Source of the DNA: Thiomicrorhabdus indica
GTDB lineage: Bacteria > Pseudomonadota > Gammaproteobacteria > Thiomicrospirales > Thiomicrospiraceae
Direction: 5' to 3'
Length of the DNA stretch: 64,000 nt
Assembly (NCBI RefSeq): GCF_004293625.1
Contig: NZ_CP033040.1
Location: 1,054,001-1,118,000, forward strand
The notes under the pieces were generated by a model. That model was given only the letters and a program-made list of their open reading frames with translations, was not told the DNA's origin and searched no databases. Shown here in pieces: positions 12,644-28,634 of this stretch; the stretch's first letter is position 1; each line of letters opens with the position of its first letter. The position numbers were made by a program, and so were the translations under genes.

Positions 12644-13621
12644 TTAGGTTGTGCTCACTTGATTGCGCCCTGTAACTTTAGAAAGATAAAGGGCGGCATC
12701 GGCTTGAGTATAGAGATCGGTCTTATCCAAGCCGTCCTTCATTTCGGTAATGCCAAAACTGGCGGTGACTCGCCCACAATCAAATTCAGTCGCTTCAATG
12801 TTTTGGCGGTGACGTTCTGCCACCTCTTTGGCATTTTTCGCATGGGTATTTGGCAGAATAATGGTAAATTCTTCGCCACCAATCCGTGACAGGGTATCGA
12901 CTTCACGTAAATTACTTTGCAGTAGTTGGGCAAATTGTTTGAGTACGGCGTCGCCTGTATCGTGGCCGTGTTGATCATTGATTTTTTTAAAGAAGTCGAT
13001 GTCGAGCAAAACCAAGCAAAAGGGTTCTTGTTGGCGTTCGTAACGCGCGATTTGCTTGTCGAGTTCTTGATCATAGACGCGACGATTGAATAATCCTGTG
13101 AGAGCATCTGTGGTTGAGAGGGCTTTGAGCTCTTGATTTAATGCCATGAGCGATTGCTGTTTTTCAAGAAGTTGCGCTTGAGCTAACTGCAGCTCCAAAT
13201 TAATCGCTGCTTTTTCTTCGGTCGCCATTTCAGCACGGCGGCGTTCTTGAATCAGTTGCTTTTCAATTAGGTGACGGCGGTGCATTTTCATCAGTGCATA
13301 GCTGTAATATGGCTTTCCATCATGATTAATGCGTTGAGCGTTTACCATCAGTGGCAGATTTTCATCGTCTCGCACTTTAAATTTCAGGTAGTTTTCTTCG
13401 ACGGTTTTATTCAGTTGCAAGCTGGGCAGGATATTGCCAAGAAACAGCAATTGACTGGACATGGGTAGCAATACTTTAATGTGCTGACCGATGAGTTCCT
13501 GTTGGTTTAGCTTTAGCCAGTCGCATAAGATGCTGTTCATCGCTGTGATTTCACTGGCTAAATTAGTGGCAAGGTAACCGCAAGGAATTTTTTCGATGTT
13601 AATCTTATTCTTCGATTGCAA
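12644..13621 (-). CDS. PAS-GGDEF diguanylate cyclase
   Basis: A 325-aa soluble signalling protein. An N-terminal PAS-like sensor (about residues 8-112) is followed by a coiled-coil linker (about 115-165) and a GGDEF domain (about 170-325). The active site is GGEEF (248-252). An RxxD inhibitory site (REVD, 239-242) sits five residues before it, so product-inhibited synthesis of c-di-GMP is expected. The start is TTG 13621 behind a purine-rich GAGAGAG. The upstream gene, 27 bases away on the same strand, encodes an RsbQ-like hydrolase, suggesting an operon in which the hydrolase serves the PAS domain. Confidence 0.88.
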   Translation of the reverse strand: MQSKNKINIEKIPCGYLATNLASEITAMNSILCDWLKLNQQELIGQHIKVLLPMSSQLLFLGNILPSLQLNKTVEENYLKFKVRDDENLPLMVNAQRINHDGKPYYSYALMKMHRRHLIEKQLIQERRRAEMATEEKAAINLELQLAQAQLLEKQQSLMALNQELKALSTTDALTGLFNRRVYDQELDKQIARYERQQEPFCLVLLDIDFFKKINDQHGHDTGDAVLKQFAQLLQSNLREVDTLSRIGGEEFTIILPNTHAKNAKEVAERHRQNIEATEFDCGRVTASFGITEMKDGLDKTDLYTQADAALYLSKVTGRNQVSTT

Positions 13622-13647
13622 AGTTTTCGCTCTCTCAGTTCAATGGG

Positions 13648-14451
13648 TTAATGCGTTATGCTGTGTTCGATGCCGGCAATCACCGCTTTAGGGTTGGTGA
13701 TTTGTGGATAGTGACCTGTAGCCTCCAGTTTTAGCGTTTGGCAATTAGGAATTTGTTGAGCCAAATAGTCAATGACTTCGAGCGGCACAATAATATCCTC
13801 TGTGCAGTAAAGCACAGAAACGGGCACTGAAATGTTCGGCAACTGATTGCGAATGTCACACAGGAAAGTCACTTTTGCAAAGTTTTCTGAAATAACGGGG
13901 TCTGAGCGTAAAAAACTTAGCTTAATATCTTCACTAAACTCGGGATGTTCACTGTTCCCAACGGCAGCGGGCGCTAAATAGCTAGCCCATTCAAAGTAGT
14001 TGAGATGCATCATAGTGAGCAATTCCATGACATCCTCTTTTTCAAAGCCACCGTGATAGTTTGTTTCATTTAGATAGTGCGGAGAGGGACCGATGGTAAT
14101 AAGCTTTTTGAACAATTCTGGGCGTTGAATGGAGGCGAGCATTCCAATCGCACCACTCACAGAGTGACCAATAAAATAGACTGATTCAAGGTTTAACGCA
14201 TCACACAGCGCGATTAAATCATTGGCATAAGCGTGCAGGTCATCGTATTTATCATTGTTGTACTCGCTCAAATCTGAGCGCCCGCAGCCAATATAATCAA
14301 AGCTAATCACACGAAATTGATCCGTAAACTCTGGAATGACTTTGTTCCAAACGGTCTTGTCACAACCAAAACCGTGACCAAAAACCAGAGTATTTGAGCC
14401 TGAGCCTTGTATCTCCACATTGTGTTTGGCAATGATGTTATCAGCAGTCAT
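13648..14451 (-). CDS. RsbQ-like alpha/beta hydrolase
   Basis: A 267-aa alpha/beta hydrolase close in length and layout to RsbQ (269 aa) and the plant KAI2/D14 group. The nucleophile is Ser97 in GHSVSG, the acid is probably the Asp in CTEDIIVP, and the base is the His in ATGHYPQ. ATG 14451 lies six bases behind AAGGA and is preferred over ATG 14457. In Bacillus, RsbQ works with the PAS domain of RsbP. Here the downstream partner is a PAS-GGDEF protein. The substrate or ligand is unknown. Confidence 0.85.
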   Translation of the reverse strand: MTADNIIAKHNVEIQGSGSNTLVFGHGFGCDKTVWNKVIPEFTDQFRVISFDYIGCGRSDLSEYNNDKYDDLHAYANDLIALCDALNLESVYFIGHSVSGAIGMLASIQRPELFKKLITIGPSPHYLNETNYHGGFEKEDVMELLTMMHLNYFEWASYLAPAAVGNSEHPEFSEDIKLSFLRSDPVISENFAKVTFLCDIRNQLPNISVPVSVLYCTEDIIVPLEVIDYLAQQIPNCQTLKLEATGHYPQITNPKAVIAGIEHSITH

Positions 14452-14713
14452 TGGCATTCCTTATCAATACGAGTGATCATTTTTAGACTATGCGAGAGTT
14501 ATAAATTGCTAGTGAAACATTTTAACGTCTATATAAGTGAAATGAATGGTACTTGAAATCAATCTTAATGTGGTTGGAGTTTTTTTATAAAGAAGTACTT
14601 TTAACCGGCCGGTGGCTTTTAGGGTAAGAAATTAGAGCAATGAATGAGGAATTGTCGGTACTTTTGTCTCGCTCGATTTATAATTTGCGCAAAACTAATT
14701 TGTGGAGAGATGT

Positions 14714-17275: not shown

Positions 17276-19540
17276 TTAGTGAGTCAGTTTCATAAATACT
17301 TGTGGAAGTTGTTCTGGCAGTTTTTCCACATGGTCGATAACGGTGTAATGATTATCAAAAATGGCTTCCACGTAGTCATCTGCATTTGGATCTAGTGTAA
17401 TACAGTAGGAGTAGATCCCTTTGTGTTTTAGCTCTTCCACTGCTTTATGAGTATCTTGAATCAGTATTTGCGGGTCTTTGCTGTCAATATCCGCCGGTTC
17501 ACCATCGGTGAGAATCAACATCAATTTTTTCTCAGCTTGCTGAGCTTCCAGATAATGGGCTGCATGACGCATGGCAGCCCCCATTCGTGTTGAATAAGAA
17601 GCTTCCATTGCTGAAATGCGAGCTTTAACTTCGTCAGTATAGCGTTCTGAATAACCTTTGATATGCTGATAGCGCACTTCGTGACGCGTATCGGAACTAA
17701 AGCCGGCAATGGCAAATTTATCGCCGAGTTGATCGACTGTCCAAGCGGTGATTGCGAGTGCTTCTTCGGCCAGTTCTAACAGTGTTTGTGAACTGTCTTG
17801 TAGACGTTCATTGAGTGACTGTGAGGTGTCGACTAACAGCATGACTGCAATATTTCGACTATCGGAGGTATGACTATAATTAATTCGAGGGTCCGGAGCT
17901 TGCCCACTTTTGAAGTCAATGATTGAACGCAATGCGATATCTAAATCCAGCTCTTCGCCTTCTTCTTGGAAGCGAATGCGCTTTTTGTTCTGCGGTTTGA
18001 GCATCTCGATCATTTTTTTCAGTCGTTTTGCTAAGCCATCGTGCTTATCCATCAAACGGTCAATTTTCCCAGCATCACCACTTGGATGAAGGCGTTCATA
18101 AACGGTTGTCCAATCCGGCCGGTAACTTTCCGATAGATAATCCCATTCGTGATAATGGCGTGGCGGTAAACCGCCATCATTTTCAACGAGCATCTCTTCA
18201 TTTTCATACTCATTAGGCATGATTTCATCCGGTTCATCGTACTCTTCGTAGTGAAACCAGATATAGCGGTTATCATCGCGGTATGAGACTTCGGTGTTAT
18301 CGAAGAATACATCCGGCAGACTGTCTGAAGATTGTTTACGAGATTTAACGTAGAAATCAGAACCTAAGCGTGCCATATCTTGTGTGGTCGAGTCCTCGCC
18401 TTTTTCTTGCATAATTTGATGGAATCGTTCACGAAATTCTTCCAGCAATGGGTTTTGCGGATCGAAACTTTCATCTAATAGCGCACGTGACATACGTGTC
18501 GCACGGTAACGAAGGCATGACTGTTTGGAATCGTCACATGCGCCTTTTTCCGGATATGGGTGTAAGGCCATAAATAACGGTTTTAACCCCGGATATCTCC
18601 GTATTGCCAAATATTCAATACGGCTGTCTTCAAATAGTGAGATGAATAACTGCATATGGGGAGCAAAATTATCGGCCATCAGTTTGGTTGACCATTTTTT
18701 GTGCGCCATCATGTGAGCTATCATGGCTCGGTAACGATTTAATCCTGTTACTCCGTTGTCATCCTGGTAAACATCCGGTACTGCAATCAAAGTTTCATCT
18801 AGATAGGGCACTGGTTTTCGTAACTGGTCAAAAGCGGTTGAGAAGGTTTGCATAGGTAAGTCGCAGTCCCACATACAGTCTTTTAGCATTACAAGATGAC
18901 GTTCGACATCCTTGAATGTCGTTCCTTTGCGTTCTCGAATGATGATGCTTTTGGCGTCATGTGATTCTAGTTTGAAATAGGCAATCTGTTCTTCAGGAGC
19001 GTTAAGGTAGTTACGTGCGCCATAGTCAATAAAGTTGCGGATGCCTTCCAGACATAATTTGGAAATCAACTGCGGTATGGAGTTTAGTAACGGAACCATC
19101 CCTGGACTTTCATGAATCGAGTGGTGACCATGAATGACGGTTTGGGTTTTATTGATGTACTCTTCAAGAATATCAAAATATCGCTGAAGTTCTTCAATGC
19201 TATCAATACGACGGCAAATGCTGCTCAAAGAGTTCAAAAACGGAATTAAGGCTTTTTTATTGGGACTACGGGCCAGCTTGTAGGAGTAATCAGAAACCAT
19301 CTTCATAGTACCTCGGCCGATATGGCGAGCGATTTCCGGCATGATTTCTAGATAGATCAATACCGGCTCAACTCCCATGCCGATTTTACAGAGAAAGTTG
19401 GCACCTTCCATATAAGCTTTCACACCCTCGGCTGATAAGGTGCTGTGTGCTTCTTCAATACAGGCAGGAAAGACTTCTTTCGCTTGCACAAACCCACAGG
19501 TAAATTTCTGCTGATATTCTGCTAATAATTCTTCATTCAT
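17276..19540 (-). CDS. cbbO: RuBisCO activase subunit CbbO (VWA-domain protein)
   Basis: A 754-aa protein, the usual size for CbbO. The N-terminal half is helical. The C-terminal part is a von Willebrand A domain with a MIDAS motif DTSQS (Asp571, Ser573, Ser575), and LILTDGEPADID near residue 650. CbbO is the adaptor of the CbbQ AAA+ ring that removes inhibitory sugar phosphates from RuBisCO. It follows cbbQ after a 180-base spacer that carries a large stem-loop (19621-19697). Confidence 0.93.
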   Translation of the reverse strand: MNEELLAEYQQKFTCGFVQAKEVFPACIEEAHSTLSAEGVKAYMEGANFLCKIGMGVEPVLIYLEIMPEIARHIGRGTMKMVSDYSYKLARSPNKKALIPFLNSLSSICRRIDSIEELQRYFDILEEYINKTQTVIHGHHSIHESPGMVPLLNSIPQLISKLCLEGIRNFIDYGARNYLNAPEEQIAYFKLESHDAKSIIIRERKGTTFKDVERHLVMLKDCMWDCDLPMQTFSTAFDQLRKPVPYLDETLIAVPDVYQDDNGVTGLNRYRAMIAHMMAHKKWSTKLMADNFAPHMQLFISLFEDSRIEYLAIRRYPGLKPLFMALHPYPEKGACDDSKQSCLRYRATRMSRALLDESFDPQNPLLEEFRERFHQIMQEKGEDSTTQDMARLGSDFYVKSRKQSSDSLPDVFFDNTEVSYRDDNRYIWFHYEEYDEPDEIMPNEYENEEMLVENDGGLPPRHYHEWDYLSESYRPDWTTVYERLHPSGDAGKIDRLMDKHDGLAKRLKKMIEMLKPQNKKRIRFQEEGEELDLDIALRSIIDFKSGQAPDPRINYSHTSDSRNIAVMLLVDTSQSLNERLQDSSQTLLELAEEALAITAWTVDQLGDKFAIAGFSSDTRHEVRYQHIKGYSERYTDEVKARISAMEASYSTRMGAAMRHAAHYLEAQQAEKKLMLILTDGEPADIDSKDPQILIQDTHKAVEELKHKGIYSYCITLDPNADDYVEAIFDNHYTVIDHVEKLPEQLPQVFMKLTH

Positions 19541-19620
19541 GTTTTAAACGGTCTCATTCGTTTAACTTCAAAATTTTTCTATTCTTAAAAATAGAAATCA
19601 TTAAGTTTAGATGGGTAGAT

Positions 19621-19697
19621 TTGGGAGGCTGTGTTAAGCCGATTGAGGGAGTGTATATTTTCATACACGACCGAAATCAATAACACACAGCGCCCAA
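19621..19697 (-). other. Large imperfect stem-loop in the cbbQ-cbbO spacer
   Basis: Bases 19621-19636 pair with 19681-19697 (16 positions, a small bulge and a mismatch). An inner GTGTAT/ATACAC hairpin sits at 19651-19668. It fills most of the spacer between the two minus-strand genes. No T-run follows on the minus strand, so mRNA processing or protection is more likely than full termination. Confidence 0.6.
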
Positions 19698-19720
19698 GGA
19701 TGCCCAAATAAAATAATGAT

Positions 19721-20521
19721 TTAGGCGAAGATCATTGAGATGGCGTTATCCAATGTTTCTCGGATGTCTACATCATCTGTAATTGGACGAACCAATGCCA
19801 TTTTGCAAGCTTCAACCGGTGAAATTCCTTTGTTAATCAGCATAGCCGCATAAACCATTAAGCGAGTCGAGATACCTTCATCTAGGCCGTGACCTTTTAA
19901 GTTACGTGCAGTTTCACCAATTTGAACCAGTTTTTTAGCTGTTGTTTCGTCAACGCCACCTTCTTGTTGGAGAATGTGTGCTTCGGTTGCTGCATCCGCA
20001 TAATCAAAATCTAGCCCACAGAAGCGCTGTTTAGTCGATTGTTTAAGGTCTTTCATTAACGACTGATAACCAGGGTTATAAGAGATAACCAGTTGGAAAT
20101 CTGGGTGGGCTTTAATGAGTTCGCCTTTTTTATCTAGGGATAGTTCACGACGGTGGTCCGTCAGGGCGTGGATAACCACCATAGTGTCTTGACGAGCTTC
20201 AACTATTTCATCTAGATAACAGATGGCACCGTAACGAGCGGCCATGGTCAAAGGCCCATCTACCCAACGGGTCCCATTGGCATCCAGTAAGTAACGACCA
20301 ACAAGGTCAGAAGCAGTAATATCTTCGTTACAAGAAACGGTAATGATGGGTTTGCCCAGCTTCCAAGCCATGTGCTCAACAAAGCGTGATTTACCGCAAC
20401 CAGTCGGCCCTTTTACCATGACAGGTAGGCGAGCATCATATGCGGCTGTATAAAGTTCTACTTCGTTTGATTGTGCATCGTAAAAAGGCTCGTTGTCGAT
20501 TTTATATTGTGAAATGTCCAT
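19721..20521 (-). CDS. cbbQ: RuBisCO activase AAA+ ATPase CbbQ
   Basis: A 266-aa MoxR-type AAA+ ATPase with Walker A GPTGCGKS (residues 38-45), Walker B ICYLDEI, and the C-terminal RLMVYAAMLI stretch typical of CbbQ/NorQ. It acts as a hexamer with CbbO to remodel RuBisCO. It is encoded 407 bases downstream of cbbM, as in the form II-linked Q2O2 type clusters. The long spacer contains a terminator-like hairpin (20751-20777), which would lower cbbQ relative to cbbM. Confidence 0.93.
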   Translation of the reverse strand: MDISQYKIDNEPFYDAQSNEVELYTAAYDARLPVMVKGPTGCGKSRFVEHMAWKLGKPIITVSCNEDITASDLVGRYLLDANGTRWVDGPLTMAARYGAICYLDEIVEARQDTMVVIHALTDHRRELSLDKKGELIKAHPDFQLVISYNPGYQSLMKDLKQSTKQRFCGLDFDYADAATEAHILQQEGGVDETTAKKLVQIGETARNLKGHGLDEGISTRLMVYAAMLINKGISPVEACKMALVRPITDDVDIRETLDNAISMIFA

Positions 20522-20750
20522 TTGAAGAATTCCCAGAAACCATTGAAAACAGAAAGTTATTTTGGGTTAGAGACTTCGTTCGAAGTAAAGGTGATGAGTG
20601 ATTATCTATGTAAGGGAACTACGGCACAAGAAACCCTTACAGAACACAAAATTGAAGTGATGAATGGTATTGCTTTCAATTTATTCACATCAACAAGGAG
20701 AAAATTCACCTTTAATCTTTTAAAAGTCCCTAAATCAAAATAACTTGAAG

Positions 20751-20777
20751 AAAAACCCCAGCCTAAAGACTGGGGTT
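20751..20777 (-). terminator. Terminator or attenuator after cbbM
   Basis: AACCCCAG (20754-20761) pairs with CTGGGGTT (20770-20777). On the minus strand the stem is followed by TTTTTC. It lies between cbbM and cbbQ and probably ends most cbbM transcripts. Partial read-through would feed cbbQO. Confidence 0.75.
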
Positions 20778-20800
20778 GGGTTCAGATAATTGCTAGATAT

Positions 20801-20916
20801 AAAGCGCGTGATTTTCGATGAGAGCAAGGCGGCAAAATTATCCGTAGCGTAGTGTATTTGCGATACATGAACAACGGAATGGGGTTACCAACGTAGCTAT
20901 TGCGTAAATCAAACGT
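20801..20916 (-). repeat. Dispersed intergenic element, copy A
   Basis: A stretch of about 116 bases in the cbbM-cbbQ spacer with short inverted ends (TGATTT near 20808, AAATCA near 20906). It has an internal TGTAT-TTGCG-ATACA hairpin. Read on the minus strand it shares TTCATGTA, ATAC, a CG-rich patch and GCCNCCTTG, in the same order, with 39272-39375. The remaining spacer (20522-20750) shows no supported gene. Confidence 0.5.
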
Positions 20917-20928
20917 TTTTAGCAGCAA

Positions 20929-22329
20929 TTATTTATGTACGCCTAGCTTCTCACGCCATTCTGGGAAAATTTTATCCGCATCGTGAGGGAAAGATTCAAA
21001 TGCGCGAGCAAATTCTTTATGATTTTTCGCGTATTCGATTGGATCTTGGCCAGACTTCCAGCACTCGTAAGCTTGACCTAGAGAGATACCACCGTCAGCA
21101 GGAGAGTCAATGTGACCGAATGAACCACCACCACAAGTGTTGATAACGTTACCGTGACCTAGGTTTTCGAAGAAACCTGGAAGACGCAGCGCATTCATAC
21201 CACCAGAGATAATTGGCGTAGTAGGCTTCATACCGTACCACTTCTGATAGAAGTATGGACCTTGACACTCATCACGCTCCAGCATGTAAGCAAGAACCGT
21301 TTCACCAGCGTGACCTTCCATTTTTCCGTAACCCATCGTACCAGTGTGGATACCAGAAGCACCCATTAGGCGAGCAAGCTTCATGTAACATAGTGGATCC
21401 ATACCCATAGGTGACTTATAAGAAGTCAAAGCACCGTGACCTGCGCGGTGGAAGTGTAGGTAAGTATCAGGGAAGTTACGACGACAAGTTGTGACACCAG
21501 CAGGGCCTGTTACGAAGCCATCAACTAGGAATGCAACGTGTTTTTCGTTACCGTATTTGGCGAATTGTTCAAGAATGTATTCACCACGTTTAACCATTTC
21601 ACCGTGGAAATCAGCTGTTACGTTAGCTGAGAACAATTTTGCCTGCCCCGTTTCTTGTTGCGCGCGATCCATTGTTTCTGCAACTAGAGGAATAACTGTT
21701 TCCATTGGGCAGAAGTCTTGGTTTGCTTGAGGTTCATCGTTTTTGATGAAATCGCCACCCAACCAGAAGTCATAACAGGCTTGAGCGAAAGGTTCTGGAC
21801 GAAGGCCTAGTTTTGGTTTGATGATCGTACCTGCAATGTAACCACCGTCAACTTCTGGACGACCAAGTACTTTCCAAAGGTCAGAAATATCGGTTGCTGG
21901 ACCATCGAAACGTTTCACCATTTTCTCAGGAACAAAGAAATCTAGCATACGTAGACCAACGTGGTCACCCATACCTTGGTTGTTACCTAAAATTAGAGAC
22001 CACATATGAGAAACGTTGTAGTGACCATCAATTAAGTTCGGATCGAAAAGCGCTACAGGGTATGCAATCTTCATTAGACCACCGTCTTCACCGAATGCCG
22101 CCTCGTCGATTTCATAAACAAGCGCATCAACACCACGCGTGAAGTCATCAGTGGTAGAAACTTCAACGTTGGTTCCGGTTGAAGATTCAGCAGCAACGTG
22201 AGCCGCTACTTCTAGAAAACCGTAACCTTCAGCAGGTTTTAGACGGTAAGCAACTAGCAGGTGATTATCATCAGCAACTAGCGTGTCTTCAGATAGAGTT
22301 AAGTCAGCGTAACGATTTGACTGATCCAT
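20929..22329 (-). CDS. cbbM: Ribulose-1,5-bisphosphate carboxylase/oxygenase, form II
   Basis: A 466-aa single-subunit RuBisCO, the normal length of form II. Visible signatures are [14 protein letters not shown] (active-site Lys region), the [10 protein letters not shown] carbamylation motif and [28 protein letters not shown] and GGGSFGHID lie near the C-terminus. It fixes CO2 in the Calvin cycle. No small subunit gene is present, as expected. It is divergent from cbbR and heads a minus-strand cluster with cbbQ and cbbO. A hairpin follows the stop at 20751-20777. Confidence 0.97.
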
Positions 22330-27293: not shown

Positions 27294-28634
27294 ATGCCTA
27301 AGCCGAATAGTCATTTGTTTGTCTCTATGAATGGTTTATTGGTGGGGGAGTTGTGGAAGTTGGAAAATGGGGCTTTGCAGTTTCAATACGCTGAGGCATG
27401 GTTACAGTCGCCTTACGCACGTTCTCTGTCTTTATCGCTGCCTTTGTCTAAGAAGGTTTATTCTGGCGATTTAATCTATAACTTTCTTGATAATTTGTTG
27501 CCGGATAATGATGCAATTCGAGCCAAAATGCAGGCACGGTTTCATACCCGAACCACCCAGCCTTTCGATCTTTTAGCGGCTGTTGGCAGTGATTGTGTCG
27601 GTGCAATTCAGCTCTCTAGTGACCTTACACCAGTAGATTTGAAAATTCATGCAAAACCTTTGAAAGAAAAGGATGTCGCGCATTTACTGAGAAATTATGG
27701 TGTGAATCCTTTAGGGATGCAGGATGCTGAGGATGACTTTCGAATTTCTATTGCCGGTGCTCAAGAAAAAACGGCGCTTTTAAAGATAGGTAGTGACTGG
27801 TATTTGCCGAAAGGGACAACGCCGACTACGCATATTCTTAAACTGCCGATTGGGATGCTTGCCTACAATAATTTAGATTTAACCCAGAGTTGTGAAAATG
27901 AATGGCTGTGTATGCAAATATCTAAAGCGTTCGACCTGCCGACGGCAAATGCTGAAGTCGTCACGTTTGAAGGCCAAAAAGTTCTGGCTGTTGAACGCTT
28001 TGATCGTAAATGGCAGTCGGATTCTAAGCTGGTAAGGCTTCCGCAAGAGGATATGTGTCAAGCATTGGGTGTTGCGCCTGCAATTAAATACGAAGCGGAT
28101 GGTGGGCCGAGCATTAAAGCGATTATGGATATTTTGCGTGGCTCGCAAACGGCAAACCAAGATCGTGAAATATTCTTTAAATCTCAAGTTCTGTTTTGGA
28201 TGCTCGCAGCACCGGATGGGCATGGTAAGAACTTCAGTCTGTCTATAGAGGCCAATAATAGTTATCGACTCACTAAATTGTATGACATTTTATCGGCTTA
28301 TCCGTTGATGGGCGGCATAGGCCTACAAAAGCAGAAAATTAAAATGGCCATGGCAGTACAAGGGAAAAAACGTCATTACAAATGGGATTCGATTATGCCA
28401 AGGCATTTTTTGAGTACCGCTAAAGCGGTCGGTTATTCTGAAAAATTGGCTTGGCAGAATATGGAAGAGATGTTTCTGAAAACAGAGAGTGTGATTGAGT
28501 CGGTATCAAAACAATTACTCAGTGACTTCCCAAAAGGCTTTCCGCACGACATTGCGGAACCCATTTTTTCAGGGCTTAGGCAAAAATCCAAAGTTGGTTT
28601 ACAGCATTTAGCTGTTTTGACCAAAGAAAAATAA
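27294..28634 (+). CDS. hipA: HipA-family serine/threonine kinase toxin
   Basis: A 446-aa HipA, full length and close to E. coli HipA (440 aa) along its whole length. Ser152 in RISIAGAQEK is the equivalent of the autophosphorylated Ser150. Asp308 in DGHGKNF and Asp331 in LYDILSA are the catalytic and metal-binding aspartates. E. coli HipA phosphorylates glutamyl-tRNA synthetase and induces persistence; the same target is likely but not shown. All key residues are present, so the toxin should be active. Confidence 0.92.
   Translation: MPKPNSHLFVSMNGLLVGELWKLENGALQFQYAEAWLQSPYARSLSLSLPLSKKVYSGDLIYNFLDNLLPDNDAIRAKMQARFHTRTTQPFDLLAAVGSDCVGAIQLSSDLTPVDLKIHAKPLKEKDVAHLLRNYGVNPLGMQDAEDDFRISIAGAQEKTALLKIGSDWYLPKGTTPTTHILKLPIGMLAYNNLDLTQSCENEWLCMQISKAFDLPTANAEVVTFEGQKVLAVERFDRKWQSDSKLVRLPQEDMCQALGVAPAIKYEADGGPSIKAIMDILRGSQTANQDREIFFKSQVLFWMLAAPDGHGKNFSLSIEANNSYRLTKLYDILSAYPLMGGIGLQKQKIKMAMAVQGKKRHYKWDSIMPRHFLSTAKAVGYSEKLAWQNMEEMFLKTESVIESVSKQLLSDFPKGFPHDIAEPIFSGLRQKSKVGLQHLAVLTKEK

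Follow-up and report, generated by a model that had tools for sequence, protein, structure and literature searches.

A divergent RsbQ-PAS gene pair with a predicted diguanylate cyclase output in Thiomicrorhabdus indica

The window analysed here, a stretch of 64,000 nucleotides from contig NZ_CP033040.1 of Thiomicrorhabdus indica, carries two neighbouring genes on the minus strand. The upstream one (13648..14457) codes for an RsbQ-type alpha/beta hydrolase, with 269 aa if translation begins at the first ATG. The likely start is, however, the next ATG, at 14451 (giving 267 aa), where AAGGA is found 6 nt 5' of the codon. This start also fits the end coordinate (14451) and the Ser97 triad of the original prediction, and the triad becomes S99/D221/H249 when numbered, as throughout this text, from the first ATG. 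The downstream gene (12644..13621) begins with a TTG located 26 bases after the end of the hydrolase, and its 325 aa product has a PAS - helix - GGDEF layout according to Pfam, AlphaFold2 and Foldseek. The original prediction of a hydrolase placed directly upstream of a PAS-GGDEF gene at this site was thus borne out. In a scan of the pair, promoter- and terminator-like sites appeared at chance level, leaving co-transcription of the two genes unsupported.

The hydrolase matched Abhydrolase_1 with 90.7 bits, above the Pfam cut-off. Its top sequence match in the PDB was RsbQ of Bacillus subtilis (1wom, E 3.2e-75, 44% identity), and most of the next matches were KAI2 and D14 proteins. RsbQ was also ranked first by Foldseek with the AlphaFold2 model (mean pLDDT 96.4; TM 0.96 to 1wom), so that both the RsbQ-type assignment and the relation to KAI2/D14 claimed beforehand hold, the latter by homology in the PDB sequence matches and in Foldseek. 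The alignments place an intact catalytic triad at Ser99 (14161..14163), Asp221 (13795-13797) and His249 (13711-13713), and this triad is kept in nearly all of the 84 hydrolases aligned (Ser in 84/84, Asp in 83/84 with one Gln, His in 83/84 with one gap that belongs to the broken hydrolase of locus L022, described below). The lid region, residues 130-202 (13852..14070), was delimited from the model and from the rice KAI2 lid (Tyr125-Ser197; PMC11350264), and contains helices at 140-152, 154-166, 172-183 and 187-199 in the model. The host genome has one RsbQ-type hydrolase, the second match being just 21% identical.

In the partner protein the GGDEF diguanylate cyclase domain (PF00990, residues 170-321, 12659..13114) scores 156.3 bits, above the cut-off, and contains GGEEF (residues 248-252, 12866..12880), a form of the GG(D/E)EF motif that characterises diguanylate cyclases. 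Five residues before it lies an RxxD (residues 239-242, 12896..12907), presumably the inhibitory site, which agrees with the I-site of the original prediction and is found at the same spacing in 28 of 40 cyclases. The N-terminal RsbP-type PAS domain (residues 13-112, 13286..13585) comes from alignment and model, with Pfam matches that stay under the cut-off (PAS_9 23.0 bits against 27, PAS 19.9 bits against 22.6). This predicted domain is supported by the AlphaFold2 model (mean pLDDT 92.5, pTM 0.60), whose best PDB matches are PAS-GGDEF-EAL structures, with TM-scores over its own length of 0.43-0.54 in the 50 matches listed, many of which cover GGDEF alone. The first of them, PA0861 (5xgb), has the same PAS - helix - GGDEF arrangement and adds an EAL domain, and the fourth, a LOV-activated diguanylate cyclase (8c05), has a similar PAS/LOV - helix - GGDEF layout. 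The PAS end, YSYALMKMHRRHLIE, read by eye, lacks a DIT motif, as expected for the RsbQ-PAS module. Both domains are connected in the model by a long helix, presumed to be a coiled coil (residues 116-170, 13112..13276), with 56 residues from R116 to D172. The same distance could be measured in 38 of 40 cyclases (two were not measurable) and spans 56 residues in 35 of them and 28 in the other three, equal to eight or four heptads; because the 56-residue linkers are related by descent, the number of independent events behind this pattern is small.

Gene pairs of this kind have been described by Nadezhdin, Brody and Price in 2011 (PMC3183031), who assembled 45 RsbQ/RsbP-PAS pairs from adjacent genes with a PPM phosphatase, a histidine kinase or a diguanylate cyclase as output, named the class residues, reported direct contact between RsbQ and PAS and proposed two ligand models. 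The core idea of the original prediction is therefore not new. A ligand made or delivered by the hydrolase is one of these two models, and the published genetics, in the parts of the paper covered here, speak for direct protein contact. In B. subtilis the changes F55A and Y59A gave null phenotypes and disrupted the interaction with RsbQ in yeast two-hybrid; the level of the Y59A protein was 50-60%, which may account for part of its effect. In 36 of the 45 proteins a stretch of 21 or more residues that may form a coiled coil leads to the output. The modular view is repeated in PMC12143880 (eLife 2025), with an AlphaFold2 model of 2RsbP/2RsbQ in which RsbQ is located between the PAS domains and the linkers. 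Among papers retrieved on RsbQ/RsbP together with GGDEF, diguanylate cyclase, c-di-GMP or karrikin, the cyclase pair was central, by titles and the beginnings of abstracts, only in PMC3183031.

The window shares with the published modules with cyclase output, for example that of Psychromonas ingrahamii (A1SVT3), a hydrolase located directly upstream on the same strand, an N-terminal RsbP-type PAS domain, a helical linker, a single GGDEF domain and most class residues, but it has an Asn at the Y59 position and its hydrolase belongs to a clade of its own. Gene order, hydrolase fold and the PAS-helix-output layout are also those of RsbQ/RsbP in B. subtilis, whereas the output is GGDEF and not a PPM phosphatase. 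Plant KAI2 and D14 (KAI2 structure, PMC3548789; karrikin perception, PMC7242065) are homologous to the hydrolase, have the same fold and triad and also signal via a protein partner, D3/MAX2, the modelled contacts of which include E174 and N181 of the KAI2 lid (PMC11350264); the identity is, however, 31-40% in the Foldseek list, and the plant partner is an F-box protein instead of a PAS protein.

In the family the hydrolase was found (E <= 1e-30) in seven of 62 genomes, and all seven have a PAS-GGDEF gene directly downstream. Separation of the two genes in relatives had been named beforehand as what would count against the pairing, which on this point stands. A PAS query matched five of the 62 genomes, all of them hydrolase-bearing, and did not reach the pairs of genomes G021 and G061. 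In G021 (L022, 6971-8700) the frame of the hydrolase is broken late and the downstream cyclase is open, so this may be a natural case of a cyclase without its partner; the counts of distances, covariation and trees do not include L022, and those of PAS residues and linkers do. Few flanking genes are common to the pair loci of the family. earP-efp (by eye) flanks the pair in L019 and L022, a DEAD-box helicase is found in L019 and L020 and a BaiN-like oxidoreductase in L021 and L022, which may be an old shared neighbourhood where one pair displaced another.

The pair recurs well beyond the family. In the scan of the genome collection, a PAS was directly downstream in 76 of the 80 best-ranked stretches kept from 585 that were confirmed, a share that is not a census since the scan patterns were built from mostly PAS-paired hydrolases and the loci kept were those nearest the hydrolase of the window. 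The others are L074, where the contig ends, L076, L078 and L104. Searching the class gave the hydrolase in three of 369 genomes, the own one included, with L024 paired and L023 unpaired, and searching the phylum gave it in 20 of 398, again with the own one, and the pair at 20 of 22 new loci. On plasmids it was present at 23 of 25 loci (L113, L136-L159) taken from 74 records with a match, which fits its patchy distribution; six of these 23 pairs are on plasmids typed as conjugative by PLSDB. Loci L009, L011-L016 and L105-L109 duplicate others counted elsewhere and were left out. Among the first 84 pairs, 40 have GGDEF in the same open frame; the remaining 44 include 33 with a match to HATPase_c and five with one to SpoIIE, and several of the rest are cut or broken frames. 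No PAS was found directly downstream of eight RsbQ homologues (L023, L076, L078, L104, L132, L133, L151, L152). The Planococcus/Planomicrobium hydrolases L036 (4884-5702), L078 (2977-3795) and L104 (2950-3801) form one clade (100/100) and no PAS gene was found directly downstream of any of the three; the gene that follows the L078 hydrolase looks RsbR-like by eye.

We compared the PAS class positions of the window with those of 75 loci outside two clades that we call A and B. At seven of the ten positions listed (C14, L17, L52, F60, P66, E76 and P90, corresponding to C10, L13, L48, C56, P62, E72 and P86 of B. subtilis) the window has the commonest letter. At two others it has a minority letter: Q57 at Q53, found in 6/75 loci and also the residue of B. 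subtilis, and L59 at F55, found in 3/75. Which consensus code of PMC3183031 fits which position was inferred in this analysis. The tenth is the RsbQ-contact position Y59, in the F-alpha helix (residues 54-71, 13409..13462, from alignment and model), where His or Tyr is the consensus at the 75% level, not an absolute one, according to the parts of PMC3183031 covered, and the window has N63.

The hydrolases of the window, of three relatives (L017, L018, L019) and of Zobellella (L025) group in a single clade supported at 100/100, clade A, and the Y59 position in their partners is N, N, T, N and Q, respectively. Outside clade A, each of the 77 letters of the first set is Y, H or F, and two rows are gapped. 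Among 43 held-out pairs the position is non-aromatic in six, so the trait is unusual and not unique to clade A, and we take it as a variant of the module that does not exclude the window from it. With 5/5 members non-aromatic, the contact in clade A must differ from that of B. subtilis. This distinct clade with a non-aromatic Y59 position is, on the sequences compared, new here. L020 and L021, from the same family, fall outside it, together with Oleispira Olei00960 and L023 (100/99). The four cyclases of clade A that belong to the genus start with a non-ATG codon (TTG, TTG, GTG and GTG at 13621 of the window, 6810 of L017, 5957 of L018 and 6927 of L019, by our own reading) followed by Gln-Ser, so that the cyclase is perhaps made in lower amounts than the hydrolase. 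Two candidate features of clade A were rejected: its specific hydrolase columns as a lid signature (6/19 in the lid, about what its 73 of 269 residues would give), and a one-residue deletion in F-alpha, the alignment being gapless there.

Clade A does not lie inside the clade of the plant KAI2/D14 receptors in the hydrolase tree. The four plant rows, one of which is a reconstructed ancestor (7ukb), form a separate clade (100/100) and are located on a long branch that takes the midpoint root. Unrooted, the tree is divided by a split with support of 95/96, and the plant rows fall on the side that is rich in cyclases, whose 42 rows comprise 29 other cyclase-paired hydrolases, the five of clade A, the four from plants and four in no group. 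That the plant receptors arose on this side is something that a tree of this kind, with no outgroup, does not show.

Hydrolase and PAS distances are correlated over 83 pairs (r 0.716; the maximum in 1000 shuffles was 0.195). Partial correlations in the 39 cyclase pairs were 0.657 between hydrolase and PAS when controlled for GGDEF and 0.283 between hydrolase and GGDEF when controlled for PAS, and therefore hydrolase and PAS co-diverge beyond GGDEF. We also calculated covariation between columns as APC-corrected mutual information and counted the column pairs that join two blocks, the lid (130-202) and F-alpha (54-71), with ranges that were fixed once the 2011 paper and the models were known. 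In the first set, lid x F-alpha accounted for 30% of the 40 pairs with the highest covariation, with 4.2% expected and a mean of 2.2% (maximum 10%) in 200 shuffles, which do not keep relatedness. Leaving clade A out gave a share of 25%, and the cyclase and non-cyclase subsets gave 20% each. Using GGDEF as a control in the 39 cyclase rows, F-alpha made up 47.5% of the top 40 in hydrolase x PAS versus 20% in GGDEF x PAS (16.3% expected), and the lid 37.5% in hydrolase x GGDEF versus 32.5% in hydrolase x PAS (about 27% expected). The F-alpha half thus passes the control and the lid half is non-specific in its own.

The pair with the highest covariation in the first set was H155-PAS59, the latter being the F55 position. 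With all 126 pairs H150-PAS65 came first and H155-PAS59 twelfth, and lid x F-alpha again took 30% of the top 40. The 43 held-out pairs, which were found with profiles of the first alignment and then added to it and so are not wholly independent, showed no lid/F-alpha excess by themselves in the top 40 (2.5%) or the top 100 (4.0%), with 3.5% expected. In their top 200 the share was 6.5%, the same as in the highest of 200 shuffles, and the mean percentile of the block was 0.545 against 0.505 +/- 0.012 after shuffling (0/200 as high), compared with 0.546 in the first set. Furthermore, the top 40 pairs of the first set had a percentile of 0.604 in the held-out set (32 usable, 2/200 shuffles as high). 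In the held-out pairs, then, the block test holds and the test of top pairs fails. The covariation leans toward direct protein contact and is silent on a ligand moving into the PAS domain.

We interpret the locus as a bipartite RsbQ-PAS sensing module with diguanylate cyclase output, to which we give a probability of roughly 0.7. The Ser-His-Asp pocket of the hydrolase would recognise a small molecule, and the hydrolase would touch the PAS F-alpha helix, probably via the lid; a parallel coiled coil would carry the change to the paired GGDEF domains, setting c-di-GMP synthesis, and binding of the product at RxxD would limit the output. The direction, activating and not inhibiting, is carried over by analogy from B. 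subtilis. Several results count against this reading: the PAS score under the Pfam cut-off, the Asn at Y59, the lid control and the failure of the top pairs in the held-out set, as well as the presence of the hydrolase in just 7/62 family genomes and the 62 GGDEF matches of the host genome.

A lesser but real possibility is Model 1 of PMC3183031, in which a product of the hydrolase is handed into the PAS cavity as signal or cofactor. The near-universal triad fits this, as do the null phenotypes of RsbQ triad mutants in the same paper, but conservation of the triad is equally expected if the pocket merely binds, and RsbP-PAS had yielded neither a ligand nor a cofactor according to the covered parts of that paper. 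Between product delivery and ligand occupancy we lean towards occupancy. It is rather improbable that clade A, through the change from Y59 to Asn, Thr or Gln, has lost the F-alpha contact and that its hydrolase acts on the cyclase via a diffusible product alone: the split between its five non-aromatic letters and the 77 Y, H or F outside points that way, yet C10, L48, P62, E72 and P86 are retained, the genes are still adjacent and the non-aromatic letters among held-out pairs indicate that the position tolerates change. Finally, a hydrolase of metabolism that shares a transcript by history with a cyclase unrelated to it would explain the sporadic hydrolase and the eight homologues lacking a PAS downstream, but recurrence of the pair across phyla and output types makes chance adjacency very unlikely, and so do its retention in the family despite few common flanks and the co-divergence beyond GGDEF.

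The host genome contains one SoxZ match and two matches to RuBisCO_large, a family that also matches B. subtilis in controls; one of these two lies inside ORF 20929-22329 of the window. Together the matches suggest a carbon-fixing sulfur oxidiser, unlike the 45 hosts of PMC3183031, organo-heterotrophs by its description. The pair (12644-14457) is located about 3-8 kb from cbbO and cbbQ (by eye) and the RuBisCO_large match (17276-22329). The clade B pair of G061 (L021, 6974-14765) also adjoins homologues of cbbO, cbbQ and RuBisCO_large, its RuBisCO homologue being only 30% identical to that of the window; such proximity is seen at two of the seven pair loci and may be accidental. A HipA-like protein (by eye) is found at 27294-28634.

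The pair is a real and well-conserved module of an already published kind, of which the window holds a divergent member; besides clade A, the RuBisCO- and SoxZ-bearing host, the lid/F-alpha covariation and the linkers of eight or four heptads are new here. That a presumed autotroph carries it speaks, weakly, in favour of an endogenous ligand. A rather doubtful extension is that reading by a partner through the lid is ancestral to RsbQ, KAI2 and D14, clade A with its Y59 replacement being a re-tuned contact through which c-di-GMP in an autotroph would follow an endogenous signal. If true, bacteria would read the ligand occupancy of the hydrolase via the PAS F-alpha helix and plants via an F-box protein. 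The covariation points to hydrolase residues for mutation, complementing PMC3183031, which mapped the PAS side in the parts covered. Both the RsbQ-PAS signal and the endogenous KAI2 ligand of plants are called unknown (PMC3183031; PMC11350264, in the parts covered), and a cyclase output would provide c-di-GMP as a simple read-out in a ligand screen.
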